From assembly GCA_002841335.1 (NCBI GenBank), contig PHEY01000005.1:62001-126000 (forward strand): a DNA stretch of 64,000 nt, given 5' to 3'. A model generated the notes under the pieces. It had not been told where the DNA came from, searched no databases, and saw nothing but the letters and a program-made list of their open reading frames with translations. Positions within the stretch are counted from its first letter, which is position 1. Every line of letters starts with the position of its first letter. Positions 47,779 through 61,534 of this stretch are shown piece after piece. Both the position numbers and the translations under genes were made by a program. Source of the DNA: Actinobacteria bacterium HGW-Actinobacteria-2. Its GTDB lineage: Bacteria > Actinomycetota > Actinomycetes > Propionibacteriales > Propionibacteriaceae.

Positions 47779-48873
47779 TTAGCGCACGGGTTCTCCGGCC
47801 GGCCACCGTCCACGCAGGTACGAGTCAGGGTAACGAGCCATCGCATCGGCGTCGAGTTCAGCGGCCGCGCGCAGCGGCCAGCTCGGCTCACGCAGGGCCA
47901 CCCGCGCCAGTGAGATCGCATCGGAGTCGCCGGCGTCCAGGATGGCCTGGGCTTGGGCCGGGCTGGTGATCTGGCCGGCCACGGTCACCGGCAGCCCGGC
48001 GGCGCGAACCGCCTTGGCCATCGGCACCTGGTAGCCCGGGGCCGAGGGGATCTTCACCATCACATTGCCCCCGGTGGAGATGTCCATCAGGTCGACGCCG
48101 TGCGCGGCCAGCATCCGGCTCACCTCGGTGGCCTCCTCGACGCTGAACCCGCCCTCGGTCCACTCGGTGGCTGACAGCCGCACCAGCAACGGCTTGTGCG
48201 CCGGCCACACCGCGCGGACGGCGTCGGTCACCTCCAGCAGCAGCTTGGCCCGTCCGGCCAGGTCCCCGCCGTACTCGTCGGTGCGCCGATTGCTCAGCGG
48301 CGAGAGGAACTGGAACAGCAGGTAGCCGTGGGCGGCGTGGATCTCGACCGCGTCGAAACCGGCCTCATCGGCGCGCCGGGCCGCCGCGGCGAAGTCGGCA
48401 ACCACCTTCGCCAGGTCTTCGGCGGTGGCCGCACGGGGGTTCGCCAGACCGGGGAACGGTTCGGCGGTCGGCCCGATGGTCTCCCACCCGCCGTCGTCCA
48501 GCGGCACCGAGCCGTTCTTGCCCGCTTCGAAGTCACGGTAGACCGACGCCTTGCGTCCGGCGTGCTGAAGCTGAATCGCGAACGGTGCGCCCTGGGAGTG
48601 GACGAAGTCGACCACCGGCTTCCAGGCCTCGACCTGCTCGTCGTTCCAGATCCCGCAGCACCACGGGGTGATCCGGCCCTCGGGCGATACCCCGGACGCC
48701 TCGGCGATCAGCAACCCGAAGCCGCCGGCTGCACGGGAACCGTAGTGCACCAGATGCCAAGCGGTCGGGACGCCGTCGCGCCCGTTGCATTGGTACTGGC
48801 ACATCGGCGCCAGGATGATCCGGTTGGGCAGGGTCAGATCGCGCAACTGAAGCGGGGCGAACAAGCTCGACAT
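47779..48873 (-). CDS. Old yellow enzyme family NADH:flavin oxidoreductase (YqjM-like)
   Basis: A 364-residue TIM-barrel FMN protein. PMCQY with Cys25 is the thermophilic-like/YqjM subgroup flavin-tuning cysteine; LQHAGRKA, HAAHGYLLFQFLSPLSNRRTDEYGG carries the substrate-binding His pair, and RLSATEW follows. Reduces activated alkenes using NAD(P)H. No operon partner; physiological substrate not deducible. Confidence 0.92.
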   Translation of the reverse strand: MSSLFAPLQLRDLTLPNRIILAPMCQYQCNGRDGVPTAWHLVHYGSRAAGGFGLLIAEASGVSPEGRITPWCCGIWNDEQVEAWKPVVDFVHSQGAPFAIQLQHAGRKASVYRDFEAGKNGSVPLDDGGWETIGPTAEPFPGLANPRAATAEDLAKVVADFAAAARRADEAGFDAVEIHAAHGYLLFQFLSPLSNRRTDEYGGDLAGRAKLLLEVTDAVRAVWPAHKPLLVRLSATEWTEGGFSVEEATEVSRMLAAHGVDLMDISTGGNVMVKIPSAPGYQVPMAKAVRAAGLPVTVAGQITSPAQAQAILDAGDSDAISLARVALREPSWPLRAAAELDADAMARYPDSYLRGRWPAGEPVR

Positions 48874-48952
48874 GGGCTCAGGCTAACCCGGCGTGGACGC
48901 CCCGCTGTCCGATTCTGCCCAGCGGGCCGTAGCCTTGCCGAGAGGTGAAGCG

Positions 48953-49555
48953 ATGACTGACTCAGCAACGTGGAACGAACGATATGCCGCGACCGAACTG
49001 GTGTGGAGCAGCGAACCCAACCAGTTCGTGGTCGAGACCTGCGCCGGGCTACGCCCGGGCCGCGCCCTCGACCTGGGGGCCGGCGAGGGCCGCAATGCCG
49101 TCTGGCTGGCCGGGCGAGGCTGGACGGTGACCGCGGTCGACTTCGCGGAGAACGCGGTCAGCCGGATCACCGCTCGATCGGCCATGGAGGCGCTCAAGAT
49201 CACCGCAACGGTGGCCGACGCGGTCAGCTACCAGCCCCCAGCCGGCAGCCTGGAGCTGGCGCTGTTGTGCTACCTGCAACTGCCATTGGCTCAGCTGCGC
49301 AAAGCGATCACCCATGTCGCCGCCGGCCTGGTCGCGGGCGGGCGACTGGTGGTCATCGCGCACGACGCGTCGAACCTGCAGCACGGGTACGGCGGCCCGC
49401 GCGACCCGAACATGCTCACCACCGCCACCCAGGTGGCCCAGGCGATGACCGAGGCCGGCCTTCAGGTCGACAGCGCGGACGTCCGCGAGCGCCAGGTACT
49501 GGTCGACACCGGCTTCCGCTACGCGCTCGATCACGTGGTGATCGGTAGCCGCTGA
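48953..49555 (+). CDS. SAM-dependent methyltransferase (TehB-like class I)
   Basis: A 200-residue methyltransferase. The ATG at 48953 follows AGAGGTGAAG; the frame's upstream 20 codons are unsupported. Motif I is LDLGAGEGRNAVWLAGRGW, then VDFAENAV (motif II region). The WNERYAATELVWSSEPNQF opening is typical of small TehB/thiopurine-like methyltransferases. It ends 1 bp before the convergent livF gene. Substrate unknown. Confidence 0.88.
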   Translation: MTDSATWNERYAATELVWSSEPNQFVVETCAGLRPGRALDLGAGEGRNAVWLAGRGWTVTAVDFAENAVSRITARSAMEALKITATVADAVSYQPPAGSLELALLCYLQLPLAQLRKAITHVAAGLVAGGRLVVIAHDASNLQHGYGGPRDPNMLTTATQVAQAMTEAGLQVDSADVRERQVLVDTGFRYALDHVVIGSR

Positions 49556-49556
49556 G

Positions 49557-50309
49557 TCAGGCGACGGCCGCGGCCAGGTTCCCCTTGCCAAGGTAGACGT
49601 CCTGGATCTGCGGGTCGTCCAGCAGGTCTTGCGCGCTACCCGACAACACGATTTCGCCGGTGGCCAACACGTAGCCTCGTGAGGCGATCGACAACGCCAA
49701 CTCGGCCTGTTGCTCGACGAACAGCACCGCCACCCCCAACTCGGTGTTGATCCGGACGATCTCGTCGAGCACCTGGTCGACCAGCTTCGGCGACAGACCC
49801 ATCGTGGGCTCGTCCATGCAGATCAGCTGCGGACGGCTCATCAGCGCCCGGGCGAAGGCCAGCATCTGCTGTTCCCCGCCGGACAGCGTCCCGGCTTCCT
49901 GGCGGCGACGTTCGGCCAGCCGCGGGAAGTGATCGCGCATCCGTTCGAGGTCTTCGGCGATGCCGGCCTTGTCATTGCGGGTGAAGGCGCCGGCCAGCAG
50001 ATTCTCGTCCACGGTCATCTGCGGGAAGACCCGGCGAGCTTCGGGCACCGAGGCGATCCCGGCGCGGACGCGCTGGCTGGTGGGAGCTTGAGTGATGTCG
50101 CGTCCGGCGAACCGCACCCGCCCGGCCTTGACCTTCACCAACCCGAGGATGGCCTTCATCGTGGTCGACTTGCCGCTGGCATTGCCGCCGAGCAGCGAGA
50201 CGATCTCGCCCTTCTGCACCGTGAGGGTGTTGCCCCGCAGCGCGTGAAAGGGCCCGTAATAGGCATGGACGTTCTCCAGGCTCAGCAACTCGGTGTGGAT
50301 CTCACTCAT
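49557..50309 (-). CDS. livF: Branched-chain-amino-acid-type ABC transporter ATPase LivF
   Basis: Second ATPase of a HAAT-class importer (250 residues). Walker A GGNASGKST is slightly unusual (Asn for Gly/Pro), signature LSGGEQQMLAFARAL, Walker B LICMDEPTMGLSPKL. ATG overlaps the livG stop. Last gene of the five-gene operon that starts with the UroD-like gene. Confidence 0.94.
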   Translation of the reverse strand: MSEIHTELLSLENVHAYYGPFHALRGNTLTVQKGEIVSLLGGNASGKSTTMKAILGLVKVKAGRVRFAGRDITQAPTSQRVRAGIASVPEARRVFPQMTVDENLLAGAFTRNDKAGIAEDLERMRDHFPRLAERRRQEAGTLSGGEQQMLAFARALMSRPQLICMDEPTMGLSPKLVDQVLDEIVRINTELGVAVLFVEQQAELALSIASRGYVLATGEIVLSGSAQDLLDDPQIQDVYLGKGNLAAAVA

Positions 50310-51160
50310 TCTGGTTCTCCTCCCAAACCCCGGCGGCGACCGAGGTAGGCCTCGACCACCGCCGGATCACGGCGGACGTGCTCAGGGCTGCCCTGGGCGA
50401 TGATCCGTCCGCCATCCATCACGATCACTCGGTCCGAGACCGTCAGCACCAGGTCGAGCTTGTGCTCCACCAGCAGGATGGTCTGCCCTTCGGCTTTGAG
50501 CTCGAGGAGCTGGCTGAGCACCTCGGCGGTCTCGGTTTGGTTCATTCCGGCGGTGGGTTCGTCGAGCACCAGCAGCTTCGGCTGCAGTGCCAACGCTCGG
50601 GCGATCTCGGTGCGGCGCCGGTTGGCGTAGCTCAGCGAGTAGGCCGGATCGTCGCGGCGAGGCCGCAGCCGCGCCTCGAAGCGATGGATCTCAGTCTCGA
50701 CGACCTCCTCGATCCGGCGCTGCTCGCGGCGCGAGGCCGGGGTGCCGACGACGGCGATGAACAGCTCGGCCAACAGCGGGATCCACCGGAGCAGAAACAC
50801 CCCCGACAGCCGCCGGAACGGACGGCTGGCGTGCAGCGTGGAGTGCAGCCCGACATCGATGTTGTCGGCCACTGACAAGGTGGCGAAAACTCGTCCGTTC
50901 TGGAAGGTCCGGGCCACGCCCTGCTCGGCGATGCGTGCGGTGTCGGCGTGGTCGATCCGCACCCCGTCGAGGGTGATGGTGCCGCCGTGGGCCGGGATCG
51001 TCCCGGTGACCAAGTTGAGCGTGGTGGTCTTGCCCGACCCGTTGGGGCCGATGATCGACACCACCTCGCCGGGGGCCACCGAGAAGGAGATGCCGTCCAC
51101 GGCTTTGAGTCCGTCGAAGTGGCGCTCCAGGCCCACCACGTCCAGCAGGTGCGCGCTCAT
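50306..51160 (-). CDS. livG: ABC transporter ATPase LivG
   Basis: First ATPase of the importer (284 residues). Walker A GPNGSGKTT, Walker B LLVLDEPTAGMN, H-loop VEHKLDLV. A 35-residue insertion of hydrophobic/aromatic character (LLRWIPLLAELFIAVVG) lies between the Q loop and the signature region, which reads LSYANRRRTEIARAL, the normal LivG variant. Overlaps its neighbours on both sides by 4 nt. Confidence 0.94.
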   Translation of the reverse strand: MSAHLLDVVGLERHFDGLKAVDGISFSVAPGEVVSIIGPNGSGKTTTLNLVTGTIPAHGGTITLDGVRIDHADTARIAEQGVARTFQNGRVFATLSVADNIDVGLHSTLHASRPFRRLSGVFLLRWIPLLAELFIAVVGTPASRREQRRIEEVVETEIHRFEARLRPRRDDPAYSLSYANRRRTEIARALALQPKLLVLDEPTAGMNQTETAEVLSQLLELKAEGQTILLVEHKLDLVLTVSDRVIVMDGGRIIAQGSPEHVRRDPAVVEAYLGRRRGLGGEPE

Positions 51161-52959
51161 GAGTTCCTCACCAACACTCCGCCGGGACGGAACCTGACCA
51201 CTCCGATCAGCACCAGGCCGTAGACGATGATCCGCAGCTCGGGGGTGAACCGCAGCAGCTCCATGGCTCCGATCAGCACCAGCGCCCCGACGACCGCGCC
51301 GTGCGGCAGGCTGACCCCGCCCATGATCACGATCGTCACCACCAACAGCGACATCAGCATGGTGAAGATGGTCGGGTCGATGTAGGTGTATTGATGGGCC
51401 AGCAGGGCGCCGCCGATGCCGGCGAAGAACGCCGAGATGGCGAACGCCAACGCCTTGTAGTCACGCACTCGCACGCCGGACGCCAGCGCGGCGACCTCGT
51501 CCGATCCGACCGAGGAGATCACCCTGCCTAGGTGGGAGTTCCGGATCCGCCACATCAGGCCCAAGGTGATCAGCAGGACGACGAAATCGATCAGGTAGAA
51601 GCCCACCGGCGTGCTCAACGACACCCCGCCCCACTGCGGGCCGGGAATGCCGTAAATGCCCTGGGGCTCGACCAGCCGAATGATGGCCACGATCACGGTG
51701 CCCACGCCGAGGGTGGCGATCGAGATGTAGTGGCCCTTCACGCCCCAGATGGGTGCGGCCAACACCGACGCGATCACCGCAGCCACCAGCCCGGCGGTCG
51801 GGACGGCCGTCCAGAACGAGAACGGCAGGTGGAGGGTGAGCAGGGCCGAGGCGTAGGCGCCGAGGGCGATCGGACCGGCTTGGCCCAGCGCGAGCACGCC
51901 GGCTTGGCCGGCGGTCACGGTGAAGCCGGCGGCGATGATCGCGTAGATCAACACCTGGGTGCCGGTCATCAGCAGGTAGTCGCCACCGAACAGCGGCACC
52001 ACCACCCCGCCGATCACGGCGGCGATCAACCACACCCACGCCGGGATTCGCAATGGACGTCCCTTGCCCAGGAAGGTGCCGGTGAGCGGCTCGGTCGAGA
52101 TCAGCGGAACCCGTCCCAGCAGGCCCCCGGGACGCAGGATCAGCACCGCGATCAGCACGACGAAGACCACGATCTCGCGGGCCGAGTCGCCGAAGAAGTG
52201 GATGCCGAAGGCTTCCAGGATGCCCAGGACGAAGCCGCCGATCACCGCGCCGACCAGGGAGCCGAGTCCACCGAGGGTGGCGGCCACGAACGAGGTCATG
52301 CCCACGTTCATCCCCGAGGTGGGGTTGGCGATACCCACATACAGCGCGATGAACACGCCGGCGACCCCACCCAGGGCGGAGGCGATCACGAAGGCGACGT
52401 GCTGCACCAACGCGACCGGAATGCCCATCTGCAGGGCGGCTTCCTGGTCCTGGGCGGTGGCGCGAATGGCCCGTCCGATCTTTCCGTACTTCAAGAACAG
52501 CGCCATCACCACCATGGTGGCCGCGGTGAAGCCGAGCATGACCAGGTCGGAGGTGCCGAAGCGCATGTTGCCGACCTGGAAGTCGGACGTCGGCAGCACC
52601 TTCGGGAACACCCGGAACTGTGCGGTGAACGCGATCTGGGAGACGTTGTCCAGAATCTGGGAGACCGCATAGGTCGACAGCATCGCCGCCAGCGGCAGGA
52701 AGGACGCCAGCGGACGGACCACCGCGATGTTGATCACCAGCCCGAGGGCCGAGCAGATCACCACCACGAGGATCAGCGCGAGCCAGAACGGCAATCCGAT
52801 TTGGGCGACGAAGAACCACGCCAGCATCGCGCCGAGTCCGAAGAAGGAGAACTGGGCGAAGTTGACGACGTTCATGACGCCGAAGACCAAGGAGATGCCG
52901 ACCGCTCCGAGGGCGTAGACGTTCCCTCGGAGCAGGCCGGCAATCAGTGTGTCGAACAT
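51157..52959 (-). CDS. livHM: Fused ABC permease LivH-LivM
   Basis: A 600-residue fusion of both permease subunits. Residues 1 to about 290 are LivH-like (GAVGISLVFGVMNVVNFAQ, NPTSGMNVGMTSFVAATLGGLGS). After a basic linker around LGKGRPLRIP, residues about 305-600 are LivM-like (GQAGVLALGQAGPIALGAYASALL, GGVSLPHGAVVGALVLI). Fusions of this sort are known in actinobacteria and proteobacteria. 25 bp after the binding-protein gene. Confidence 0.93.
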   Translation of the reverse strand: MFDTLIAGLLRGNVYALGAVGISLVFGVMNVVNFAQFSFFGLGAMLAWFFVAQIGLPFWLALILVVVICSALGLVINIAVVRPLASFLPLAAMLSTYAVSQILDNVSQIAFTAQFRVFPKVLPTSDFQVGNMRFGTSDLVMLGFTAATMVVMALFLKYGKIGRAIRATAQDQEAALQMGIPVALVQHVAFVIASALGGVAGVFIALYVGIANPTSGMNVGMTSFVAATLGGLGSLVGAVIGGFVLGILEAFGIHFFGDSAREIVVFVVLIAVLILRPGGLLGRVPLISTEPLTGTFLGKGRPLRIPAWVWLIAAVIGGVVVPLFGGDYLLMTGTQVLIYAIIAAGFTVTAGQAGVLALGQAGPIALGAYASALLTLHLPFSFWTAVPTAGLVAAVIASVLAAPIWGVKGHYISIATLGVGTVIVAIIRLVEPQGIYGIPGPQWGGVSLSTPVGFYLIDFVVLLITLGLMWRIRNSHLGRVISSVGSDEVAALASGVRVRDYKALAFAISAFFAGIGGALLAHQYTYIDPTIFTMLMSLLVVTIVIMGGVSLPHGAVVGALVLIGAMELLRFTPELRIIVYGLVLIGVVRFRPGGVLVRNS

Positions 52960-52984
52960 GATGAATCAGGCAGGGCCGACCGGC

Positions 52985-54136
52985 TCAGCCCTTGTACTCC
53001 ACCCATTTGCCGCCGGTCAGAATCGTCGGCGTGAGCTTCGGTGAGGCGACTCGACGGGTGGTCGGGTCGAAGGTGACCGTGCCGTAGACGATGCTGGGCA
53101 CGTCCTTGATCTGCTTGAAACCGGCCAGGATGCCGTCGCGGGTCGGGCCTCCGGCCTTGGCCGCAGCGACCGCCACGGTGAACGCGTCGTAGGCGCCGGC
53201 CTCGAAGCCGGTCACTTGGGCTTCGTTGGGGTACTTGGCCTTGAACGCCTTGACAAACGCCTGGACGTCCGGGTCGGAACTGGCCGCCAGGAACTGAGCG
53301 CCCACGATCGAGCCCTCGGCATCGGGGGTGGCGTTGAACGACTTCTCGTCCTGGCCTCCGAAGAAGGTGCCCTGGTAGCCGATCGAGCGCAGCTGGGTGA
53401 CGATCTTGGCCGCGTCCGGTCCGTAGCCGACGTGGACGAAGGCGTCCGGCTTGCCCTCGACGGCTTTGGTGAGTGAGGGACGGTAATCGTCGGAGGTGTC
53501 CAGCACGCCCTCGGCGTCGGTGATGACCAGCCCGATCTTGTCGGCCTCGGCCTTGAACGCGTTGAACGCCGGGATGCCCCAATCAGCCGTGTTCAGGTAG
53601 GTGACGCCGACCGACTTCACGCCCTGCGACTTGATGTAGTCGGCGTTCCAGGTGTAGCTGGCGCTGGTGGTGATGGAGGTTGACCACTGGTACTGCGAAC
53701 CCTTGGCGGTGAAGTCGGGGTTGGAGTTGTTGAAGCCGTACTGCACCAGCTTCCCGGCGGTGTAGATCGGCGATGCCGGGATCGATGCCGAGGAGGAGTA
53801 GTCACCGAAGACCAGCACCACGCTGGGGTCGGCGACGAACTTCTGCGCCACGGTCACCGACTGCTTGGGGTCGGACTGGGAGTCCTCGTACTTCAGGACG
53901 ACCTTCTTGCCGTTGATGCCACCGGCAGCGTTCACCTGCTCGGCGGCCAGGTCGAAAGCTTCCTTGAACTGCTGGCCGTACTGGGCGTACGGCCCGGTGA
54001 TCGCTGCCGAGACCCCGAAGTAGACGGTGTTGGCGTCGGCGGCGCCGCTGGCGCCGGTGCAGGCGGCCAGGGCGAGCGTCGGGCTGACGGCGAGGAGGGC
54101 GACGGCGAGGCGTCGCAGCTTGGTGTTGGGCTTCAT
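52985..54136 (-). CDS. livK: ABC transporter substrate-binding lipoprotein LivK-like
   Basis: A 383-residue periplasmic-binding-type lipoprotein. The signal peptide ends in a LALAAC lipobox (Cys26). The mature part begins VYFGVSAAITGPYAQYGQQFKEAFDLA, the class I HAAT ligand-binding start, and ends with a family-typical WVEYKG. Members bind branched amino acids, amides, urea or aromatic acids, so the ligand is open. Gene order after the UroD-like gene suggests the ligand is processed by that enzyme or by the divergent monooxygenase. Confidence 0.93.
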   Translation of the reverse strand: MKPNTKLRRLAVALLAVSPTLALAACTGASGAADANTVYFGVSAAITGPYAQYGQQFKEAFDLAAEQVNAAGGINGKKVVLKYEDSQSDPKQSVTVAQKFVADPSVVLVFGDYSSSASIPASPIYTAGKLVQYGFNNSNPDFTAKGSQYQWSTSITTSASYTWNADYIKSQGVKSVGVTYLNTADWGIPAFNAFKAEADKIGLVITDAEGVLDTSDDYRPSLTKAVEGKPDAFVHVGYGPDAAKIVTQLRSIGYQGTFFGGQDEKSFNATPDAEGSIVGAQFLAASSDPDVQAFVKAFKAKYPNEAQVTGFEAGAYDAFTVAVAAAKAGGPTRDGILAGFKQIKDVPSIVYGTVTFDPTTRRVASPKLTPTILTGGKWVEYKG

Positions 54137-54188
54137 GGTGGTGGTGTCCTTTCGTGGTTCGCTGTGGTGCAGGTGGTGGGGGCCGGTG

Positions 54189-55256
54189 TCAGCCGGCGTC
54201 CCGGAGCAGACGCAGAGATTCCGGGTCGGCTGGGGTCGGGATGGTGCAGCTGGGCGCCAACAGGAACGGCGCCGAGGGTGCTGCGGCGAGGGTGGCGGCC
54301 AGCTGGGCGCTCACCTGGGCGTGGTCGGCACCTTCGGCGAACAGGGTGTTGTTGACCCCGCCCACGGCGGTGACGCCGAGTTGGGCGTTCAGTGCGGGGT
54401 TGCCGGGCAGGAACTGATCCCAGTGCAGGGCGCTGATCGGGTAGCTGGTGAACCATTCGGGGTTGGCGTTCGGTCCGCAGGAGTGCAGGACGACCGGCGC
54501 CCCAGCTGCGGCGCCCAGCACCTGCAGGTCGAACGGACGGGAGAACTCGGCGAAGGTCGCCTCGTCGAAGTACCCGGCCGAGGCTGTGCCGGTGACGGCA
54601 TAGAAGATGCCGTCCAGCCCGGCGCCGCCGTCCTCGATCGGGGCCAACAGTGCCCGGACGTAGTCGGCGAAGGTCTGGGCGATCGCCGCCAGGGCTACGC
54701 GCACCCCGTCCGGCTTGGCGCGCAACAGATCATCGGCGGTGAAGGGCGTGGTCGCTCCCGGCACCGGTACGCCGCGATAGACCGGCAGGCCGGCCAGTTG
54801 CAGCAGCACTGACAGCGGGGAGAACAGAGTCTGCAGCACCGCGCGGTCACCGAACTCCTGGCGAATCAGCCGAGCTGAGGCCAGGTGCTCGGCCAGCACC
54901 GGGTTGGTGGCCACGTCGAGCGGAGTGATGGTGTCCAGGTCGGCGAATGTGCCGATCGCCGGCGACACCAGTCGGGGCACCACCCCGTGGTAGTCGTGGG
55001 GATCGAAGACCGATCCCCAGGCTTCGGCGTAGTAGACCGCGCGCGGGTTGATCTTCACCCAGTCCCAATCCCAGCGGCGGTTGAAACCGATGGTGGCCGC
55101 GGCGAACCGTTCGGGGTCGTACTCGTCGCCGACCGGGTGTTGCCATGCGCTGGTGAGGAAGGGCTGATCGAGTTCTCCGCGCAACAGAGCGGCGAACTCC
55201 GTGCGCCGGTCGGCGATGAGGTCCGTGCTGACCGCACGGGCAGGGGATGACGACAT
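54189..55256 (-). CDS. UroD-superfamily protein with MtaA-like zinc site, putative thiol alkyltransferase
   Basis: A 355-residue member of the uroporphyrinogen-decarboxylase fold. The RQAGRY-type substrate motif of true HemE is absent. Instead the zinc motif H-x-C-Xn-C of methylcobamide:thiol methyltransferases is seen: His258-Ser-Cys260 (VVLHSCG) and Cys337 (LLAPSCTIP). This predicts transfer of an alkyl group to or from a thiol rather than decarboxylation. AGGAGCCCCGAC precedes the ATG. First gene of the operon with livK, livHM, livG and livF. Haem synthesis is an unlikely role since no hem genes are near. Confidence 0.85.
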   Translation of the reverse strand: MSSSPARAVSTDLIADRRTEFAALLRGELDQPFLTSAWQHPVGDEYDPERFAAATIGFNRRWDWDWVKINPRAVYYAEAWGSVFDPHDYHGVVPRLVSPAIGTFADLDTITPLDVATNPVLAEHLASARLIRQEFGDRAVLQTLFSPLSVLLQLAGLPVYRGVPVPGATTPFTADDLLRAKPDGVRVALAAIAQTFADYVRALLAPIEDGGAGLDGIFYAVTGTASAGYFDEATFAEFSRPFDLQVLGAAAGAPVVLHSCGPNANPEWFTSYPISALHWDQFLPGNPALNAQLGVTAVGGVNNTLFAEGADHAQVSAQLAATLAAAPSAPFLLAPSCTIPTPADPESLRLLRDAG

Positions 55257-55726
55257 GTCGGGGCTCCTTAGCAGGACTGAGTGTGGGGGTGGGGGCGGTA
55301 GCCGGACGCACGACAGCGTCCGGGGACGCCGCTGCGACGGCGAGATCGGTGATGAGGCTGAGCCTCAGATCAGGCGTGGTCGCCGGTGCCGAAGCACGGG
55401 GCGATCACGGCGGGACGCGGTTACCTCAGCAAGCTCGCTGGCTACGCATCAAGCGACAGCACATGGCACCGGTATGCATCTGGCGGCGGGTCGGGCCACT
55501 GATCATTCGGGTCATCACAGGTCGCTTTCTGTCAGGGCCGGACGGTGCTGGATCACAACGAGGGTGCCGCTGACCTGCCGAACGCTAGCAGCGCCCGAAA
55601 GGTGGAACCAGCCGATTCCCGCATTGTGGACACGTGTGTATACAGGTGCGTACGAGCTGCCCATTTCGTGTTAGACATGGGGCTCCACCACACCGCTCCC
55701 CGCGATCACGAACAAGGAAACAGACC
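55257..55726. other. 470-bp divergent control region of the UroD-like/Liv operon and the monooxygenase cassette
   Basis: No protein gene of ordinary size is convincing. The minus-strand side holds a Cys-containing short ORF (55426-55464) followed by hairpins: GTGC-TTCG-GCAC and GAGGCTCAGCCTC (near 55350-55365), before the UroD-like start. The plus-strand side includes TATACA at 55639-55644 as the best -10-like hexamer before the monooxygenase, and AAGGAAACAGACC as its ribosome site. Confidence 0.55.
55426..55464 (-). CDS. Candidate Cys-containing leader peptide
   Basis: A 12-codon ORF on the minus strand encodes MCCRLMRSQRAC and stops 170 bp before the UroD-like start. Short actinobacterial leader peptides with a CCR-type start and terminal Cys control sulfur-metabolism operons by ribosome stalling at Cys codons; this one fits that form. 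Hairpins lie between it and the structural gene. An in-frame ATG five codons upstream is an alternative start. No clear ribosome site is visible, so a leaderless transcript may be used. Confidence 0.5.
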   Translation of the reverse strand: MCCRLMRSQRAC

Positions 55727-56767
55727 ATGGCACCGATCAAGCTCGGCTTCTTCACCCGCTTGCTGGAACGCGCCAGCGCCGCCGACCGCTACCAGTACGC
55801 GCTCGAACAAGCCCAGCTGGCAGAGCAGCTCGGCTACAACACCGTCTGGGTCGCCCAACACCACTTCCACGCCGAAGAAGGCGGCCTGCCCTCACCCTTC
55901 GTGTTCCTCAGCCACTTGGCCGCCCGCACCAGCCGCATCCACCTGGGCACCGGCGTGATCACCCTGCCGCTGGAGAACACCATCCGGGTGGCCGAGGACG
56001 CCGTCGTGCTCGACCTCCTGTCCGGCGGACGCTTCGAGTTCGGCATCGGCTCCGGTGCAACCGACGCCTCCCTGGCCGCCTTCGGGGTGGTGCCGTCCGA
56101 TCGCGCCACGGTGTACGAGGCGGGCGTCCATCAACTCGTCGAAGCCCTGCGTGGTCACGAGATCGCCCATCCGGAGAACCGGCTCTACCCGTCCGGCGAG
56201 AGCCTGCTCAACCGCATCTGGCAGTCCACCTTCTCCGCCTACGGCGGCACCCGCTCGGGCCTGCCCGGCCACGGACTGTTGGTCTCGCGCTCGCAGCCCC
56301 GTCCGGCCGACCAGCCCGATCTGCCGCTGTCCGCCCTCCAGCAGCCGATCCTGGACGCCTACTTCGCCGCCCTGCCGGACGGCGTGGCGCCGCGGGTACT
56401 GGCGTCGCGAACCCTGGTGGTCACCGACACCGAGGCCCAGGCCGAGCAGTACTTGGACGACGCCTACCAGCGCTACCTCACCCGTCCCGGTGCTGGCGGT
56501 GGTCTGATCGTTGAGGCCGACGATGCCCGCACCTGGGCACGACGCACCGACACCCACATCGGCACCCCCGAGCAGGTGATCGCCTCCCTGGCCGATGATC
56601 CGATCATCCCGCAGTCGACCGAAGTGGCCTTCCAGGTGCACAGCATCGATCCCGGCCACGAAGCCACCCTGCGTTCGCTCGAACTGATCGCCCAGAAGGT
56701 GGCCCCGGCCCTGGGCTGGGAAACCAGCGCCTCGTCAGTCGCCGCCGTGCCGGCCGGCGTTGCCTGA
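55727..56767 (+). CDS. FMN-dependent luciferase-like monooxygenase (KPN_01858-type)
   Basis: A 346-residue LLM-class flavoprotein. The N-terminus IKLGFFTRLLERASA, VWVAQHHF, GTGVITLPLENTIRVAEDAVVLDLLSGGRFEFGIGSG are bacterial-luciferase-family signatures. With the two downstream CMD-domain genes it forms a three-gene cassette that I recognise from Klebsiella and Agrobacterium naming (KPN_01858, Avi_7170, Avi_7169). Expected to oxidise a small organic substrate with reduced FMN. ATG at 55727 follows AAGGAAACAGACC. First gene of the plus-strand operon. Confidence 0.88.
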   Translation: MAPIKLGFFTRLLERASAADRYQYALEQAQLAEQLGYNTVWVAQHHFHAEEGGLPSPFVFLSHLAARTSRIHLGTGVITLPLENTIRVAEDAVVLDLLSGGRFEFGIGSGATDASLAAFGVVPSDRATVYEAGVHQLVEALRGHEIAHPENRLYPSGESLLNRIWQSTFSAYGGTRSGLPGHGLLVSRSQPRPADQPDLPLSALQQPILDAYFAALPDGVAPRVLASRTLVVTDTEAQAEQYLDDAYQRYLTRPGAGGGLIVEADDARTWARRTDTHIGTPEQVIASLADDPIIPQSTEVAFQVHSIDPGHEATLRSLELIAQKVAPALGWETSASSVAAVPAGVA

Positions 56768-56775
56768 GGCCTGCG

Positions 56776-57372
56776 ATGAGTACCGACATCATCGATCAGC
56801 TCGCCGGCCTCACCGCCGGGTCGGGGGCCGAGGTCCTGCGCCATCAGCGCGAGCAGGCCCGGGCTCAGTCCCAGGCAAGCTACGACGCACTGTTCACCGC
56901 TCCCGACCTGACCGGGGTGAGCCCCACCGAGCGACTCGCTGTGGCCACCTTCGTCGCCGCCTTGCACGGTTCGTCCGCCGCGTTGACGCACTACAGCTCG
57001 CGACTGGCGGCAACGTCCTCGGTGGAGATCGCCGATCACGTCACCCTCCTGGCCACCGCTGCGGCGGTCGCCGGTCCCTATGGACGATTCCCCGCCGGCA
57101 CAGACCTGCACGACGAGGACGCTCCCGGCCCGGTCCTGCACCTCGACCCGGCCACTGTGACCACCCTCGGACGGCGGCTCAGCACCGCCTTCGAGCACGC
57201 CCATCTGCTGGTGTTCCGTCCGCGCGAGTCCTCACCCGAGGCGCTGGTCGCACTGCTGGACGCCGGCTGGTCGACTGCCCAGATCGTGACGTTGTCACAG
57301 CTGGTGACCTTCTTGGCCTTCCAGCTGCGTGTGATTCACGGGCTGAGCGCGTTGGACGGAGAACTGGCATGA
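56776..57372 (+). CDS. CMD domain protein (Avi_7170-type)
   Basis: A 198-residue helical protein of the carboxymuconolactone-decarboxylase/AhpD superfamily, without a CxxC pair. It begins DIIDQLAGLTAGS and carries SPTERLAVATFVAALHGSS, then AAALLDAGWSTAQIVTLSQLVTFLAFQLRV-type helices. Always found next to the AhpD-domain partner that follows; the two probably form a complex. Starts 8 bp after the monooxygenase stop and overlaps the next gene by 4 nt. Confidence 0.85.
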   Translation: MSTDIIDQLAGLTAGSGAEVLRHQREQARAQSQASYDALFTAPDLTGVSPTERLAVATFVAALHGSSAALTHYSSRLAATSSVEIADHVTLLATAAAVAGPYGRFPAGTDLHDEDAPGPVLHLDPATVTTLGRRLSTAFEHAHLLVFRPRESSPEALVALLDAGWSTAQIVTLSQLVTFLAFQLRVIHGLSALDGELA

Positions 57373-57980
57373 GCATCGATCAGGCGCTGCATCCGACCGT
57401 GGTCTCCCCGACCGGCTTCACTCAGGACCGCATCGGCTGGCAGCCGTGGCTGGAACCGGTGGACGAGTCCGAACTCAGCCCGACTCAGCGCGATGCGCTG
57501 ATCGACGCCGGACGCGCCACGTCGCCCTACTTCCGCCTCCTGGCGCACGATCCGGCGATCCTGAAGGCGCGCACGCTGACCGATGTCGACATCTTCTACA
57601 ACCTGCAGGCGGGCTTGCCGCGTGGGGAACGCGAGTTCGCCGCGGCTGCCACGTCCCGGTTCAACGGGTGCATCTTCTGTGCGTCGGTCCATGCCCGCTT
57701 CGCCGCTCACTTCCTCGACGACCCCGCCGAGGTCGCGACCCTCCTGGAGGAGGGGGTCGATGCCACCTTGACTCCCCGAACCCGGGCGATCGTGGACGCC
57801 GCGGTGGCGCTGACCCGCACCCCCATCGAGTTCCGGGCCACCCACGTCCGTTCGCTGCGTGCGGTCGGGCTCGATGACGGGGCCATCGCCGACCTGATCC
57901 ACGCCGCGGCCTTCTTCAACTGGGCCAACCGGCTGATGCTGTCGCTGGGCGAACCGGACGCCAGCAATCTGTCCGGCTAG
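57369..57980 (+). CDS. Alkylhydroperoxidase-domain protein (Avi_7169-type)
   Basis: A 203-residue AhpD-like protein with the redox motif CIFCASVH (Cys101, Cys104, His108), so a thiol peroxidase or thiol-exchange role is possible. Upstream it has SPYFRLLAHDPAILKART and downstream LTPRTRAIVDAAVALTRTP, AFFNWANRLMLSLGEP. Third gene of the cassette; followed by a strong terminator. May detoxify a peroxide or sulfenic product of the monooxygenase; inference only. Confidence 0.87.
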   Translation: MSIDQALHPTVVSPTGFTQDRIGWQPWLEPVDESELSPTQRDALIDAGRATSPYFRLLAHDPAILKARTLTDVDIFYNLQAGLPRGEREFAAAATSRFNGCIFCASVHARFAAHFLDDPAEVATLLEEGVDATLTPRTRAIVDAAVALTRTPIEFRATHVRSLRAVGLDDGAIADLIHAAAFFNWANRLMLSLGEPDASNLSG

Positions 57981-58056: not shown

Positions 58057-58575
58057 TCAGGACTTGGCCCACACCGTGCCCTTGCCGCTGTTGACGTCAT
58101 GGCTTCCGATGTAGACCCCGACCACGTCCTTGCCGTCATCGCCACTGAGCGGCACACAAATGGTCACCGTCTTGCCGGCCAGGAAATCGGCTGTTGCTTG
58201 GTTTGAGTCCGCCACGTTGCCGGAGCACTCGTCCGGGCCGGAGCCCATCGTGTCCAGGTAGTTGCCGTCGCTGAGCTTGGCGAACACCGAGGAGCCCACT
58301 CCCGTAATCGTCCCGCTCGCCTTGCTCGGATCAGTGAGCTTGGCGTCGACGGTCGCGAAGTACAGCTTGTCCTTGATGTCGTACTTGGCCACCACCTCGG
58401 CCGGCGCCTCGACCACCGACTTCACGGTGACCTCGTAGGTGTACTTCGGATCCTTGGTGCCGCTGAGATCGATCACAGCGCTTTGGCCCAGCTTCAGATC
58501 ACCGGCACCACAACCGGTGAGGCTCAGGACTGCGGCCAACAATGCAGGCACGACTAACAGATGTGCGCGTTTCAT
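58057..58575 (-). CDS. Small lipoprotein of unknown function
   Basis: A 172-residue protein with a signal peptide and LTGC lipobox (Cys22). The mature part is a single beta-rich domain (YTYEVTVKSVVEAPAEVV, YFATVDAKLTD, VTICVPLSGDDGKDVVGVYIG), like the Ig-like DUF4352 group found in actinobacterial lipoproteins. Two Cys residues (PDECSG and TICVP) may form a disulfide. Membrane-anchored on the outer face. No partner gene identified. Confidence 0.82.
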   Translation of the reverse strand: MKRAHLLVVPALLAAVLSLTGCGAGDLKLGQSAVIDLSGTKDPKYTYEVTVKSVVEAPAEVVAKYDIKDKLYFATVDAKLTDPSKASGTITGVGSSVFAKLSDGNYLDTMGSGPDECSGNVADSNQATADFLAGKTVTICVPLSGDDGKDVVGVYIGSHDVNSGKGTVWAKS

Positions 58576-58712
58576 ATCTACCCCTCAAGCTTGTTCGGGC
58601 TCTTCCAACCCAGCCACCAAGGCTGAAGGACGCGCGCGGGCTCATCACACCTGCAGAACCAACTCCGAAGAATCCCGAACGCGATGTCTCACTATGCGAG
58701 GCAGGCTCTCGG

Positions 58713-59435
58713 TCAGTGACGACTCAGAGGCAGGAGTTGCTGGCCGTCAGCGTCGAAGTTGGAAGCGTCCAGCCAACGCCGCTGACGGCGGTCGATCGCT
58801 GGCCACTCGGTGTCGATGATCGAGAACCAGTCGGTGTCGCGGTTGCGTCCTTTGGTCACCAGGTGCTGGCGGAACCGTCCTTCTTCGGTGAAACCCAGTC
58901 GGAGAGCGGCCCGCCGAGACGGCTCGTTCAGGCTGTCGCACTTCCACTCCACGCGGCGGTAGCCCAGGGCGAACACCTCGGCCAACAGCAGGTGGATCGC
59001 TTCGGTGGCGGCACGGGTGCGCTGCATTGAGCGAGCAAAGATCACGTTGGAGATCTCGACCACCCCCTGCTCAGGGACGATCGGATGCAGCACGGCCACG
59101 CCTTCGCCGGCGCGGCCTTCCGGGGAGAACACATAGGCCACGCTGGTCTCGTGCGCGATCATCGGCGCCAACACGGCGTCGGTGAGCTGGTCGATCGAGA
59201 TCGGACGGGTGGTCTGTCGGTAGGTCCACAGCGGCTCGTCCTCAGCACCACACAGCGCCGCGAACAGCTCAGCGGCATGCTCAGCTCGCAGCCGATGCGC
59301 CTCGACGTATGCCCCCCGAAGCGGCCGTCCGTCCGGCCGAGGCCGCGGCAACTCGGTGGCCACGATCGGCCCCACCAGCTGCCCGTATTGATTGGACACC
59401 GGCCGATCGGCCGCCGCCTCGTCCACACTCATCAT
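58713..59435 (-). CDS. GNAT family acetyltransferase
   Basis: A 240-residue acetyltransferase of the RimJ/RimL-like type. RGAYVEAHRLRAEHAAELFAAL opens the fold; VEISNVIFARSMQRTRAATEAIHLLL contains the acetyl-CoA loop, and ALGYRRVEWKCDSLNEPSRRAALRLGF the C-terminal hairpin. Two consecutive ATGs (59433-59435 and 59430-59432) are possible starts; AGGGG lies just before. Acceptor unknown. Confidence 0.87.
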   Translation of the reverse strand: MMSVDEAAADRPVSNQYGQLVGPIVATELPRPRPDGRPLRGAYVEAHRLRAEHAAELFAALCGAEDEPLWTYRQTTRPISIDQLTDAVLAPMIAHETSVAYVFSPEGRAGEGVAVLHPIVPEQGVVEISNVIFARSMQRTRAATEAIHLLLAEVFALGYRRVEWKCDSLNEPSRRAALRLGFTEEGRFRQHLVTKGRNRDTDWFSIIDTEWPAIDRRQRRWLDASNFDADGQQLLPLSRH

Positions 59436-59550
59436 GGCCCCTACGGTAACGGCCACCGTGACTCGATGAGGCAGCCGAACCCTGTGGCTCAACCCGGCGA
59501 GCACTCACAGCGGATCCGCAGCGCGCCCGGGCCGACCCCTGTGGATCAGT

Positions 59551-59588
59551 AGACGGTTCCTCGTCCACCGGCGCAGAAGGAACCGTCT
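59551..59588. repeat. Dispersed palindromic repeat with GACGGTTCC ends, copy 2
   Basis: AGACGGTTCCT (59551-59561) pairs perfectly with AGGAACCGTCT (59578-59588) around 16 nt. Shares GACGGTTCC/GGAACCGTC with copy 1 at 43337-43404; both have GTGTCCC or its complement close by. Confidence 0.6.
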
Positions 59589-59628
59589 CCGATGTGTCCC
59601 CCCGATGTGCCCCCGGCCCACCCAGCCA

Positions 59629-59668
59629 CCGCTGGTTGAGCAGGCCGCGCGGCGGCCGTGTCGAAACC
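59629..59668 (+). repeat. 40-bp dispersed element, intergenic copy
   Basis: Begins CCGCTGGTTGAG and ends TCGAAACC, with a GC-rich central dyad (GGCCGC/GCGGCC). Same length and ends as copy B inside hypF (25571-25610); the centre differs. Confidence 0.75.
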
Positions 59669-59782
59669 CCCAGAGAACCACCCCCGCCGACCCCCGGCGC
59701 TCACCGCACCTCGGCCGCACTCGCAACGGGATTCACAGCGCAGCCACGCCGACACATGGCAGGCTGGCTGTGGAGGACAGAC

Positions 59783-61534
59783 ATGTATTGGGAACTTGCC
59801 GCCATCATCGCCGTGGTGCTGACGGTCTTCGGAGTCAGCCTGGCGCCACGACTGGGGGTTGCCTCTCCGCTGCTGCTGATCGGGCTCGGCTTCGGGATGG
59901 CCATGCTGCCGTGGGTGGACAGCATCACCGTCAACCCGGAATGGGTGCTGGCCGGGGTGCTCCCGCCGCTGCTCTACGCGGCCGCCGTCAACACCCCCGT
60001 GATGGAGTTCCGCCGCGATCTGCGACTGATTTCGACATTCTCCGTGGTGCTGGTGGTGGTCACGGCCGTGGTGATCGGCTGGGTGGCGACAGTGCTGGTG
60101 CCGGGGATGCCGCTGGGGGTGGGCATCGCGCTCGGCGCCATCATCAGCCCCACGGACGCGGTCGCCGTCTCGATCGTCCGCAAGTCCGGGGTGTCGAGCC
60201 GACTGGTCACAGTGCTGGAAGGCGAGTCGATGCTCAACGACGCGTCCGCTTTGGTGCTGCTGCGCACGGCGGTAGCGGCCGTCGGGGTGTCGGTGTCGCT
60301 GTGGAGCGTGGTGGCCAGCTTTGTGTGGGCCGTGGTCGCTGCGGTCGCTATCGGCTGGGTGGTCGGCAAGGTCAATCTGTTCGTCCGGCGCTGGATCACT
60401 TCACTGCCCGCCGGAGTTGCGCTCTCGCTGGCGGTGCCGTTCATCGCCTACCTCCCCGCCGAGCACTTGGAGGCGTCTGGCCTGGTGGCGGCGGTCACCG
60501 CCGGCATCGTGGTCAGCTACGAGTCACCTCGACGCATCGGCGCCGAGGAACGGTTGGCCGAGCGTGCTGTCTGGGCGACGGTGGAGTTGCTGCTGGAGAG
60601 CGCGGTGTTCTTGTTGGTCGGGGTGGAGCTGCCGAGCCTGGTGGCCCAGTACAGCGAGGACGGCACCTACCTCACCCACCCGGTCGGACTGGCCACAGTG
60701 ATGTTCACCTTGGCCCTGCTGATCCGGACGGCCTTCGTGGCGTTCGGCGTGTGGCGGCTGGCCGGCCGCAACCGGCGCCTGGCACCGGCGCGTGACCGGC
60801 TCAGCGAGATCCATGACCGACTCGTCGACGGTGAGCTGCCGCCACTGTCGGAGGCCAAGACGTCCCGCCGGGTGCGCCTGCAGCGGATCAAGGCCGGCCC
60901 CGAACGGATCTCCCGTTGGCGCCACATGCTGCAGCGCCGGATCGCCGACCTGGACTACCTGGCCGCCGAGCAGTTCAGCTGGCGTGACGGCACGATCCTG
61001 GTGTGGGCGGGCATGCGTGGCGCCGTCACGATCGCCGCCGCCCAGTCCCTGCCGGCCGAGATCGCCCACCGCCCGCTGATCATCCTCACCGCCACCGTGA
61101 TCGCGGTCGGCACGCTGATCATTCAAGGGCTCACCTTGGAGCCGCTCGCCAAGCGCCTGGGCGTCAGCACGTCCGACAGCGGCGCCGATCCGGACTTGTG
61201 GCGGGAATTGCAGGCCGAACTCGACTCGGCCGCCCTGGCGGCCCTTCCCCCTGCCGGCGATGACGATGCCAGTGACCTGATCCGTCGGGTCCGTGAACGC
61301 CTCAGCCAATCCGCGGAGGGTGCGGGCAAGAACTGGTTCGGACTCCAGGGGCAGGAGGCCGAGCAGGCGTGGGCCAGCTTCCGCGAGCTGCGGCTGACCA
61401 CCCTGGCCGGGCAACGGGCCAAGTTGCTCGAACTGCGCAGCCTCGGCACCTACCCCACCGCCATGCTGGACGACGCCCTGGCGCAGCTCGACGCCCAGCA
61501 GATCAGCATCGAGTTGCGCCAGCAATACGACTGA
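59783..61534 (+). CDS. Na+/H+ antiporter (CPA1/NhaP family)
   Basis: A 583-residue antiporter. The ATG at 59783 follows GGAGGACAGAC and directly begins the first helix; the longer frame runs through the repeat region. About 12 helices span residues 1-390, with the ion-site motif SPTDAVAVS and ESMLNDASALV in the fifth and sixth helices, typical of CPA1. A basic then acidic cytoplasmic tail of about 190 residues follows (with GTILVWAGMRGAVTIAAAQSLP as a late membrane motif). Role in pH and sodium balance. Single gene. Confidence 0.92.
   Translation: MYWELAAIIAVVLTVFGVSLAPRLGVASPLLLIGLGFGMAMLPWVDSITVNPEWVLAGVLPPLLYAAAVNTPVMEFRRDLRLISTFSVVLVVVTAVVIGWVATVLVPGMPLGVGIALGAIISPTDAVAVSIVRKSGVSSRLVTVLEGESMLNDASALVLLRTAVAAVGVSVSLWSVVASFVWAVVAAVAIGWVVGKVNLFVRRWITSLPAGVALSLAVPFIAYLPAEHLEASGLVAAVTAGIVVSYESPRRIGAEERLAERAVWATVELLLESAVFLLVGVELPSLVAQYSEDGTYLTHPVGLATVMFTLALLIRTAFVAFGVWRLAGRNRRLAPARDRLSEIHDRLVDGELPPLSEAKTSRRVRLQRIKAGPERISRWRHMLQRRIADLDYLAAEQFSWRDGTILVWAGMRGAVTIAAAQSLPAEIAHRPLIILTATVIAVGTLIIQGLTLEPLAKRLGVSTSDSGADPDLWRELQAELDSAALAALPPAGDDDASDLIRRVRERLSQSAEGAGKNWFGLQGQEAEQAWASFRELRLTTLAGQRAKLLELRSLGTYPTAMLDDALAQLDAQQISIELRQQYD

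Follow-up and report, generated by a model that had tools for sequence, protein, structure and literature searches.

In the cobalamin-independent methionine synthase MetE and in the soluble coenzyme M methyltransferases (SCMTs), an H-x-C...C motif binds zinc and activates a thiol. Other methyltransferases of the UroD superfamily, encoded in type 1 mlp clusters, have been proposed to salvage methyl-sulfur or methyl-selenium compounds, and some of these clusters also carry MetY or other methionine genes (sections of Kountz and Balskus, PMC10418091). By the same account, each cluster encodes two or three Mlps together with an activase and a corrinoid protein, and the hosts are obligate anaerobes. 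Cys-rich leader peptides have been reported ahead of the cys operons of mycobacteria and Propionibacterium acnes and of cbs of Bifidobacterium longum, among others (excerpts of Seliverstov 2005, PMC1262725), and the mycobacterial polycysteine leaders are reported to be cysteine-responsive attenuators (Canestrari 2020, as cited in a portion of PMC9094748). Here, we describe a locus that combines elements of these systems in a 64,000-nucleotide stretch of Actinobacteria bacterium HGW-Actinobacteria-2, called the window (positions 62001-126000 of contig C3 of genome G000, 2.92 Mb and 98.6% complete). In this locus, a UroD-like gene heads an operon for a HAAT-type (Liv) importer. We propose, with a probability of about 0.6, that this operon, UroD-Liv, is induced by cysteine starvation and scavenges organosulfur compounds. 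Loci are denoted L, genomes G and contigs C.

Every gene that an earlier note, made from the sequence alone, had placed between 49557 and 57980 of the window was found there. On the minus strand, the order is UroD-like, livK, livHM, livG and livF, with gaps of approximately 50 and 25 bp followed by overlaps. Coordinates and profile matches bear out the operon, LivH and LivM being one fused permease, and the importer set is complete: a substrate-binding protein, two permease domains and two ATPases. As described earlier, a flavin mononucleotide (FMN)-dependent monooxygenase gene diverges from the UroD-like gene across a common region of 470 bp. The features of the operon and its upstream region were as follows.

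54189-55256, minus strand: UroD-superfamily protein, 355 aa, first gene of the operon (PF01208, E 5.7e-17, over cut-off; H258-x-C260...C337; WDWDWVKINPR signature)
52985-54136, minus strand: LivK, HAAT-type substrate-binding protein (PF13458, E 5.1e-50)
51157-52959, minus strand: LivHM, fused HAAT permease, 600 aa (two PF02653 stretches)
50306-51160, minus strand: LivG, HAAT ATPase (PF00005 and PF12399)
49557-50309, minus strand: LivF, HAAT ATPase (PF00005; the top NCBIfam model is LivF, below cut-off)
55426-55515, minus strand: Cys-containing leader open reading frame (ORF), 29 codons plus stop, MTRMISGPTRRQMHTGAMCCRLMRSQRAC (aligned with the leaders of L008, L009, L012 and L045)
55616-55632, minus strand: 17-bp operator-like site TGTCCACAATGCGGGAA (one of two G000-wide matches to the pattern TGYCCRYAWTNYGGRMW, the other preceding a MetY-like gene)
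55582-55587, minus strand: TAGCGT, putative -10 element (45 nt from the operator start, with equal spacing before the MetY-like gene)

A single scan over GTDB contigs yielded 28 UroD loci: 24 from Bifidobacteriaceae, three from organisms named as Propionibacteriales or Propionibacteriaceae, and one from an Actinomycetota metagenome-assembled genome (L009), which groups in the window's clade on the UroD tree. Liv genes lay behind UroD in 26 of the 28, some loci being cut by contig ends. In a larger set of 50 UroD rows (the window plus 49 rows from L008-L035, L044, L045, L047 and L102-L119), LivK was next after UroD in 42. A second set, which omitted the window and added L046 (the same region as L010), gave 41 of 50, L013 falling out of its LivK tally at a 38% identity threshold. 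These counts refer to rows and not to species: L033, L114 and L119 supply two rows each, near-identical loci of the Bifidobacterium asteroides clade inflate the numbers, and genes in fetched loci were greedy ORF picks made with no gene finder. The second row of L119 arises from a UroD gene in two pieces (L119:9696-10729), in a Bifidobacteriaceae genome that retains the Liv genes and MetY. Sequence comparison thus shows that the UroD-like gene is part of a conserved operon with the HAAT importer genes. In broader samples, UroD was present in 34 of 151 Bifidobacteriaceae genomes and in 5 of 396 genomes of the phylum, namely the window's and four with UroD at 33-35% identity; the stretches fetched beside these four genes held no LivK.

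UroD relatives that lack the Liv context adjoin other ATP-binding cassette importers, as listed below.

L112: SBP_bac_3-type importer beside UroD
L116: SBP_bac_6-type importer beside UroD, with divergent MetY
L114: SBP_bac_5-type importer, then UroD and MetY
L110: SBP_bac_5-type importer, UroD, FAD-oxidase/GNAT reading frame and MetY-like gene
L115: two permeases beside UroD
L048: FecCD-type importer beside UroD
L050: hydantoinase A/B and permease beside UroD

On the tree of the 50 UroD rows, the HAAT label required seven changes, at least five of them forced by well-supported branches. The labels were assigned by us, that of the second UroD of L025 from two ATPase-like matches only and those of L112 and L115 from SBP_bac_3 or permease matches. 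The variety of importer classes around one UroD clade suggests varied substrates; in the simplest reading, the enzyme acts on the cargo of its importer and the substrate varies accordingly with the importer.

Several of these loci have further features. L110:5199-16387 appears to be an operon of an oligopeptide-type importer, a UroD relative, the FAD-oxidase/GNAT frame and a MetY-like gene; acetylation in such an operon recalls alkylcysteine salvage in Bacillus. In L114:4691-16091, two UroD relatives flank an SBP_bac_5 operon that ends with an acyl-CoA thioesterase/BAAT-like gene, UroD and MetY. The UroD relatives of L048:6404-10851 and L050:8564-16448 are more distant (approximately 38%). L050, which also has a LysR gene, may resemble acetophenone carboxylase, whose ApcE subunit is a UroD-fold match; its UroD branch is very long, and another enzyme may be encoded there.

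The earlier note had placed a short Cys-containing ORF, MCCRLMRSQRAC, with hairpins downstream of it, in the 470-bp region. This sequence is present on the minus strand, but it is the 3' part of the 29-codon ORF MTRMISGPTRRQMHTGAMCCRLMRSQRAC and not a whole ORF. The 12-residue leader as first written was rejected, since it is the tail of an ORF homologous to the leaders of relatives. Specifically, the N-terminal half of the window leader aligns with longer Cys-rich leaders in four relatives (L008, L009, L012 and L045; that of L008 is MSRSISGESHRTMRAAAMSRRCCPCQRCMSSVN), and the window leader draws its weight from these homologs. The hairpins did not hold up: 55257-55480 folded with a z-score of -1.56, 16 of 200 shuffles folded equally well, and no intrinsic terminator was found. 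An attenuator based on a hairpin or intrinsic terminator was rejected on these grounds. An Rfam element was likewise rejected: the sole match, to a microRNA model, fell far short of the gathering score.

To quantify the leaders, short ORFs up to 500 bp upstream of UroD were scanned and Cys residues counted in the last 15 residues. At least four Cys occurred in 10 of 42 Liv-linked rows, whereas the antisense strand gave 1 of 42 and shuffles predicted 0.58; at least three occurred in 14 of 42 versus 5 antisense and 4.42 expected. All eight rows from outside the Bifidobacteriaceae (the window, L008, L009, L010, L012, L044, L045 and L047) reached three, and seven of them had at least four. The four rows of the Alloscardovia clade had 7, 4, 3 and 2 Cys, and three of the other 30 Liv-linked Bifidobacteriaceae rows reached three. 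None of the eight UroD rows without Liv genes did so. For comparison with known leader attenuators, we infer that UroD-Liv may be counted as a sulfur operon.

The upstream region of UroD-Liv resembles that of a second gene in the same genome. G000 has two strong PF01053 genes, one of which is MetY-like (C1:67528-68784; L137). A leader ORF, MTSTSTAPLCCCCMPSMARCRMC, ends 122 nt before the ATG of this gene and begins 7 nt after TAGCGT; starting at that distance, this Cys leader would be leaderless, like the mycobacterial Cys leaders. A 17-bp site reads TGTCCACAATGCGGGAA before UroD and TGCCCACATTGCGGGAT before the MetY-like gene, and both copies start 45 nt before TAGCGT. The latter is a putative -10 element; a search found no sigma-70-type site. 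A near-perfect palindromic form of the site, TGTCCGYAATNYGGACA, occurs in L008, L012 and L045, and a degenerate form in L009. The IUPAC pattern TGYCCRYAWTNYGGRMW, which covers five of these sites, matched G000 exactly twice: before UroD and before the MetY-like gene, each with a Cys leader. It matched one site each in G430, G475 and G471, before UroD, and none in G472, G439, G406 or G408. The backward pattern, used as a control, gave 0-1 matches per genome. Together, these promoter sequences indicate that UroD-Liv and the MetY-like gene are co-regulated, in the window's genome only. A gene for a LacI-family regulator, a candidate operator binder, lies just 3' of livF in L008:6521-7537 and L045:3350-4387; none was seen adjoining the window operon.

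MetY also recurs beside UroD. Thus, a MetY-like pyridoxal-phosphate enzyme was encoded within the locus, downstream in line, upstream in line or divergently, in 26 of 38 Bifidobacteriaceae rows (those of the 42 that are flanked by 6 kb or more on each side). A cystathionine-gamma-type relative was present in 17 of the same 38. Five MetY-like examples scored 436-464 bits against TIGR01326 (O-acetylhomoserine sulfhydrylase; cut-off 495.1) and are therefore relatives and not certified members of that family.

We next considered sulfate and sulfite reduction. Two families were looked for, PF01507 (PAPS reductase/CysD type; matched in 14 of 14 controls) and PF01077 (sulfite/nitrite reductase; matched in 11 of 14 controls), and neither was found in G000, G430, G475, G406 or G408. 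G439 had weak PF01507 matches (best E 2.7e-9) and a clear PF01077 match. PF01077 was also found in G471, G472 and G477, and was negative in G476, G484 and G488. PF01507 occurred in 22 of 37 UroD-negative genomes of the window's family, as compared to none of five UroD-Liv genomes if the weak matches of G439 are discounted (p 0.018); with the same discount, completeness filtering gave 0 of 5 versus 14 of 21 (p 0.012). Because the families for sulfate and sulfite reduction were not found in G000, sulfur probably enters this organism at the level of a thiol or sulfide.

The motif H-x-C-Xn-C reported earlier for the UroD-like protein is present as H258, C260 and C337, which were invariant in 23 of 23 aligned relatives; a block of W62-D-W-D-W66, K68 and N70-P-R72 was conserved in the same set. 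The protein had no match in an NCBIfam profile search. G000 has two PF01208 genes, on different contigs; the other scores 359.7 bits versus 61.1 for the UroD-like protein and is presumably the haem enzyme. The AlphaFold2 model had a mean pLDDT (per-residue confidence) of 93.5. The top solved folds in Foldseek were UroD enzymes and a methyltransferase of Methanosarcina mazei, 4ay8 (template modelling (TM) scores 0.77/0.80, 18% identity), TM scores to UroD and 4ay8 being approximately 0.7-0.8. Further down came a subunit of acetophenone carboxylase, at ranks 27-29, and then, starting at rank 30, methionine synthases. The earlier description of this protein as like a zinc alkyltransferase thus stands as regards fold and motif, and from these two features the protein is predicted to be a thiol-directed zinc enzyme. 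Our best guess, at roughly even odds, is that it dealkylates the imported compound.

A corrinoid partner was looked for at two levels. No corrinoid protein or reductive activase was seen among the UroD neighbors scanned, and none of the 26 UroD-bearing Bifidobacteriaceae genomes had a PF02310 B12-binding domain over cut-off (nine had sub-threshold matches of approximately 20-25 bits; 12 of 14 controls were above cut-off). A corrinoid methyltransferase was rejected on the basis of these 26 genomes. G000 itself encodes two B12-binding domains, neither of them on C3: the two ORFs concerned, 1163 and 808 aa long, lie on contigs C1 and C2 and are presumably MetH and methylmalonyl-CoA mutase.

The acidic residue found in HAAT binding proteins for amino acids is a ligand of the alpha-ammonium group. 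LivK lacks such a residue: the position is Gln262, invariant in 21 of 21 LivK rows, and in the aligned solved structures it is occupied by Ser (3hut), Asp (4gnr), Glu (4n0q, by title a Leu complex) or Asn (4mlc/4q6b and 4obb). The title of 4obb names a 3-methyl-2-... ligand, and in that of 4nv3, an N280D mutant of seemingly the same protein, the name of the ligand starts with 'v'. We take these ligands to be a 2-oxo acid and valine, respectively, and N280 to be the equivalent of Gln262 by our numbering. The best solved matches of LivK include Leu/Ile/Val binders. The substitution hints that the ligand of LivK may have no free alpha-amino group.

As the earlier note had proposed, the divergent side of the locus encodes a cassette of an FMN monooxygenase and two CMD/AhpD proteins. 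Each of the three scores over its TIGR cut-off.

55727-56767, plus strand: FMN-dependent luciferase-like monooxygenase, divergent from UroD (TIGR04027, 464.2 bits, cut-off 412.9)
56776-57372, plus strand: CMD-domain protein, accessory, membership uncertain (TIGR04029, 175.2 bits, cut-off 100.75)
57369-57980, plus strand: AhpD-like protein, accessory, membership uncertain (TIGR04030, 252.3 bits, cut-off 233.15)

Of 27 UroD genomes searched (possibly 26, as G408 and G473 share places), G000, G430 and G475 had a TIGR04027 member over cut-off, and 24 had none. In all three, the gene adjoins UroD divergently. Neither CMD nor AhpD was found next to the monooxygenase of L045, where the contig ends approximately 1.2 kb past the gene, or to that of L130: the next gene in L045 encodes 6-phosphogluconate dehydrogenase, followed by the contig end, and L130 continues with an unrecognized ORF and an F420-oxidoreductase-like ORF. 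L130:7453-9189, a few genes from the monooxygenase, encodes a relative of the putidacin-L1-like lectin bacteriocins (150 bits, cut-off 275). The note had treated the absence of co-occurrence in other genomes as a reason to drop the proposal: UroD and the Liv genes do co-occur, and the full gene set largely does not. In the UroD genomes that have a member over cut-off, the monooxygenase lies beside UroD, but most UroD genomes searched have none over cut-off, and among the three cases CMD and AhpD were seen with it only in the window. That the monooxygenase is functionally part of the system is a tentative assignment, just short of an even chance; for CMD and AhpD the chance is lower.

Two of the 396 genomes in the phylum sample carried TIGR04027. 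In most of the other bacteria inspected, the trio or its equivalent is accompanied by a different importer, TIGR04028; these are Agrobacterium, two Pantoea (for which a CMD gene was not listed separately), Rhizobium and G343 (L068-L071 and L129). An NtaA/DmoA-type monooxygenase (L071) and sulfatase genes (L069) lie nearby in these contexts. Of 125 plasmid records with a relative of the monooxygenase, five were opened, their gene table being incomplete; on one, from Paracoccus (L067:1-15755), the trio lies among genes for sarcosine oxidase, purU and a ring-hydroxylating dioxygenase, with no TIGR04028 listed. A sulfur role of the trio is plausible but not established. Judging by title, none of the papers matched in searches of the open-licence literature is on this trio. 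Supply of sulfur by conversion of sulfonates to sulfite was rejected for the monooxygenase, as G000, G430 and G475 had no NIR_SIR match. No TIGR04028 was found in the five flanking ORFs of the window (47782-49552 and 58060-61531) or the eight genes between them; the rest of G000 was not searched. These flanks encode an old-yellow-enzyme-type oxidoreductase (47779-48873; best NCBIfam models below cut-off) and a relative of Na+/H+ antiporters (59594-61534; 230 bits, cut-off 279.6).

A sulfur role and cysteine control of UroD-Liv, as first put forward from the sequence, are supported by the Cys leaders of relatives, the leader and operator shared with the MetY-like gene, the adjacency of MetY and the absence of the reductase families. 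From these several lines, we consider a sulfur-scavenging function of UroD-Liv highly probable. The conservation of the operon, the absence of B12-binding domains over cut-off from the bifidobacterial carriers, the exchange of importers around one UroD clade and the neutral Gln262 of LivK also speak for the proposed reading. In the proposed mechanism, a scarcity of charged Cys-tRNA would stall ribosomes in the leader and raise expression of the operon, as is reported for the mycobacterial polycysteine leaders. The cargo of LivK-HM-GF would be a small organosulfur molecule, perhaps a sulfonium or an S-alkyl carboxylate and not a plain alpha-amino acid. The UroD-like enzyme would hold a thiol or thiolate on zinc through His258, Cys260 and Cys337 and move an alkyl group, most likely methyl, between sulfurs with no corrinoid protein. 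Through MetY, the thiol or sulfide set free, or else the acceptor in its alkylated form, could then enter homocysteine or methionine and subsequently, by transsulfuration, cysteine. In three members, the FMN monooxygenase at the divergent promoter may add an oxygen-dependent route of C-S cleavage, with a product expected at the thiol or sulfide level because no sulfite reductase family was found.

More broadly, these loci may represent an undescribed, corrinoid-free route to sulfur from S-alkyl compounds in actinobacteria that lack sulfate reduction, including bifidobacteria. It would comprise one zinc UroD clade, interchangeable importers (HAAT, SBP_bac_3, SBP_bac_5, SBP_bac_6 and FecCD), MetY to capture the sulfur and, in some lineages, a cysteine-shortage switch made of leader and operator. 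We advance this generalization tentatively and put it somewhat below even odds. Among the matches listed in searches of the open-licence literature, no paper deals by title with this combination, and only PMC10418091 comes close. Bifidobacteria are reported to make no direct use of sulfur and to have a sulfur amino acid pathway that is still poorly known (passages of PMC11540073). For these bacteria and for sulfate-incompetent propionibacteria, whose sulfur acquisition is likewise poorly understood, the locus names a conserved operon, a likely partner enzyme and a putative cysteine switch. If the proposal is true, it would yield a thiol dealkylase that works free of cobalamin, and a means of finding out which organosulfur compounds feed these bacteria.

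Several observations weigh against a cysteine-controlled scavenging operon. Taken alone, the window leader is weak, its three Cys being matched by 6 of 40 shuffles. The leader signal stems from the eight rows outside the Bifidobacteriaceae and the Alloscardovia clade: 6 of 34 Liv-linked Bifidobacteriaceae rows reach three Cys, and shuffles give 4.42 over all 42. The operator pattern was built in part from the sites it finds, so only the near-absence of other matches is new information. Moreover, UroD-negative G427 has two matches, and three other UroD-negative family members have none. The similarity of the UroD and MetY promoters is moderate, its score being reached by 3 of 300 shuffles. An upstream Cys leader was found at 1 of 12 PF01053 loci scanned in six genomes and the operator in 1 of 10 such upstream regions checked, in both cases L137; the MetY regions of G430 (L138) and G475 (L141) lack the operator, and L132, the second strong PF01053 gene of G000, is without leader or operator. 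UroD is patchy: of 77 genomes sampled near that of the window, 8 have it, five of these with adjoining Liv genes. Counting the weak matches of G439 brings the PF01507 link to 1 of 5 (p 0.16), and 15 of 37 UroD-negative family members also lack PF01507; UroD carriers are not alone in lacking sulfate reduction. The Asn at the Gln262 position of 4q6b, titled as a Leu complex, means that Gln262 does not exclude an amino acid. Finally, the substrate and the chemistry of UroD are predictions.

The alternative that survives best, although we consider it unlikely, is that LivKHMGF imports an ordinary sulfur amino acid or a near relative (methionine, homocysteine or S-methylmethionine) and that UroD is a corrinoid-free homocysteine methyltransferase, making methionine from a co-imported or cellular methyl donor alongside MetY. 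The MetY neighborhood and Cys leader would suit such an enzyme, as would its fold kinship to methionine synthases (Foldseek ranks 30-50) and the Leu/Ile/Val binders among the solved matches of LivK. It is harder to reconcile with the lack of an NCBIfam match and with the 1163-aa B12-binding ORF, presumably MetH, beside which a further methionine synthase seems unnecessary. LivK also lacks the acidic residue of 4gnr and 4n0q, and the differing importer classes suggest varied substrates.

Thiol-alkylation detoxification, in which UroD would relieve modified thiols or electrophile adducts of their alkyl groups, with sulfur supply only as a by-product, is improbable. Alkyl transfer at zinc thiolates runs in both directions in the UroD superfamily, and AhpD and CMD belong to redox-type families, both of which would fit detoxification; the Cys leader and the operator common with the MetY-like gene point instead to sulfur supply, and a dedicated importer is hard to explain.

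For UroD to act as a corrinoid:thiol methyltransferase of the SCMT/Mlp type, as in type 1 mlp clusters, is very improbable: the nearest solved methyltransferase is indeed the M. mazei enzyme (TM 0.77/0.80) and such clusters can also neighbor MetY, but B12-binding domains over cut-off are absent from the 26 UroD-bearing Bifidobacteriaceae (nine with 20-25-bit matches), corrinoid proteins and activases from the scanned neighbors, and the identity to 4ay8, the one SCMT compared, is 18%, where the sections of PMC10418091 cited above ask Mlps for >25% to a characterised SCMT. An operon with no sulfur role, in which a nitrogen or carbon importer is paired with a UroD-fold enzyme and the leader and operator likeness arose by chance, has an equally slim prospect: it would accommodate the 28 of 34 Liv-linked Bifidobacteriaceae rows without a three-Cys leader, the solved HAAT relatives that by title mostly carry amino acids or aromatics, and the operator-free MetY genes of G430 and G475, but not the enrichment of leaders over shuffles and antisense, the leader and operator at the MetY-like gene of the same genome, or the adjacency of MetY in 26 of 38 rows.

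The SCMTs (MtaA, MtbA and MtsA) and MetE belong to the same fold superfamily as the UroD-like protein, and the known enzymes have a zinc-type His/Cys site and a thiol substrate. The UroD-like protein differs from them in its 18% identity to the M. mazei enzyme (4ay8/4ay7, in a structural alignment with the sole SCMT compared), in that no corrinoid partner was found, and in having no MetE-like double domain. Like other HAAT (Liv) importers, that of the window has LivK, a fused LivHM, LivG and LivF; it differs in the Gln where 4gnr and 4n0q have an acidic residue and in its dedicated UroD partner. The window encodes all three enzymes of the TIGR04027/04029/04030 trio over cut-off, but where the trio system has a TIGR04028 importer, the scanned flanks of the window have none and the trio instead diverges from UroD-Liv; in the other two UroD-linked cases (L045 and L130), CMD and AhpD were not seen. 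In contrast to type 1 mlp clusters, which call for Mlp2 and Mlp3 in one cluster together with a co-encoded corrinoid protein in the sections of PMC10418091 at hand, the window operon has a single UroD, an importer and a Cys leader, with no corrinoid protein alongside it or seen to be co-encoded with it in G000 or the 26 Bifidobacteriaceae; this lack separates UroD-Liv from those clusters. Finally, the leaders resemble the actinobacterial polycysteine leaders in being short upstream ORFs with Cys codons near the stop (excerpts of PMC1262725 and PMC9094748), and, while the leaders known from those excerpts sit before cys operons and cbs, those described here sit before a UroD-HAAT operon and a MetY-like gene.

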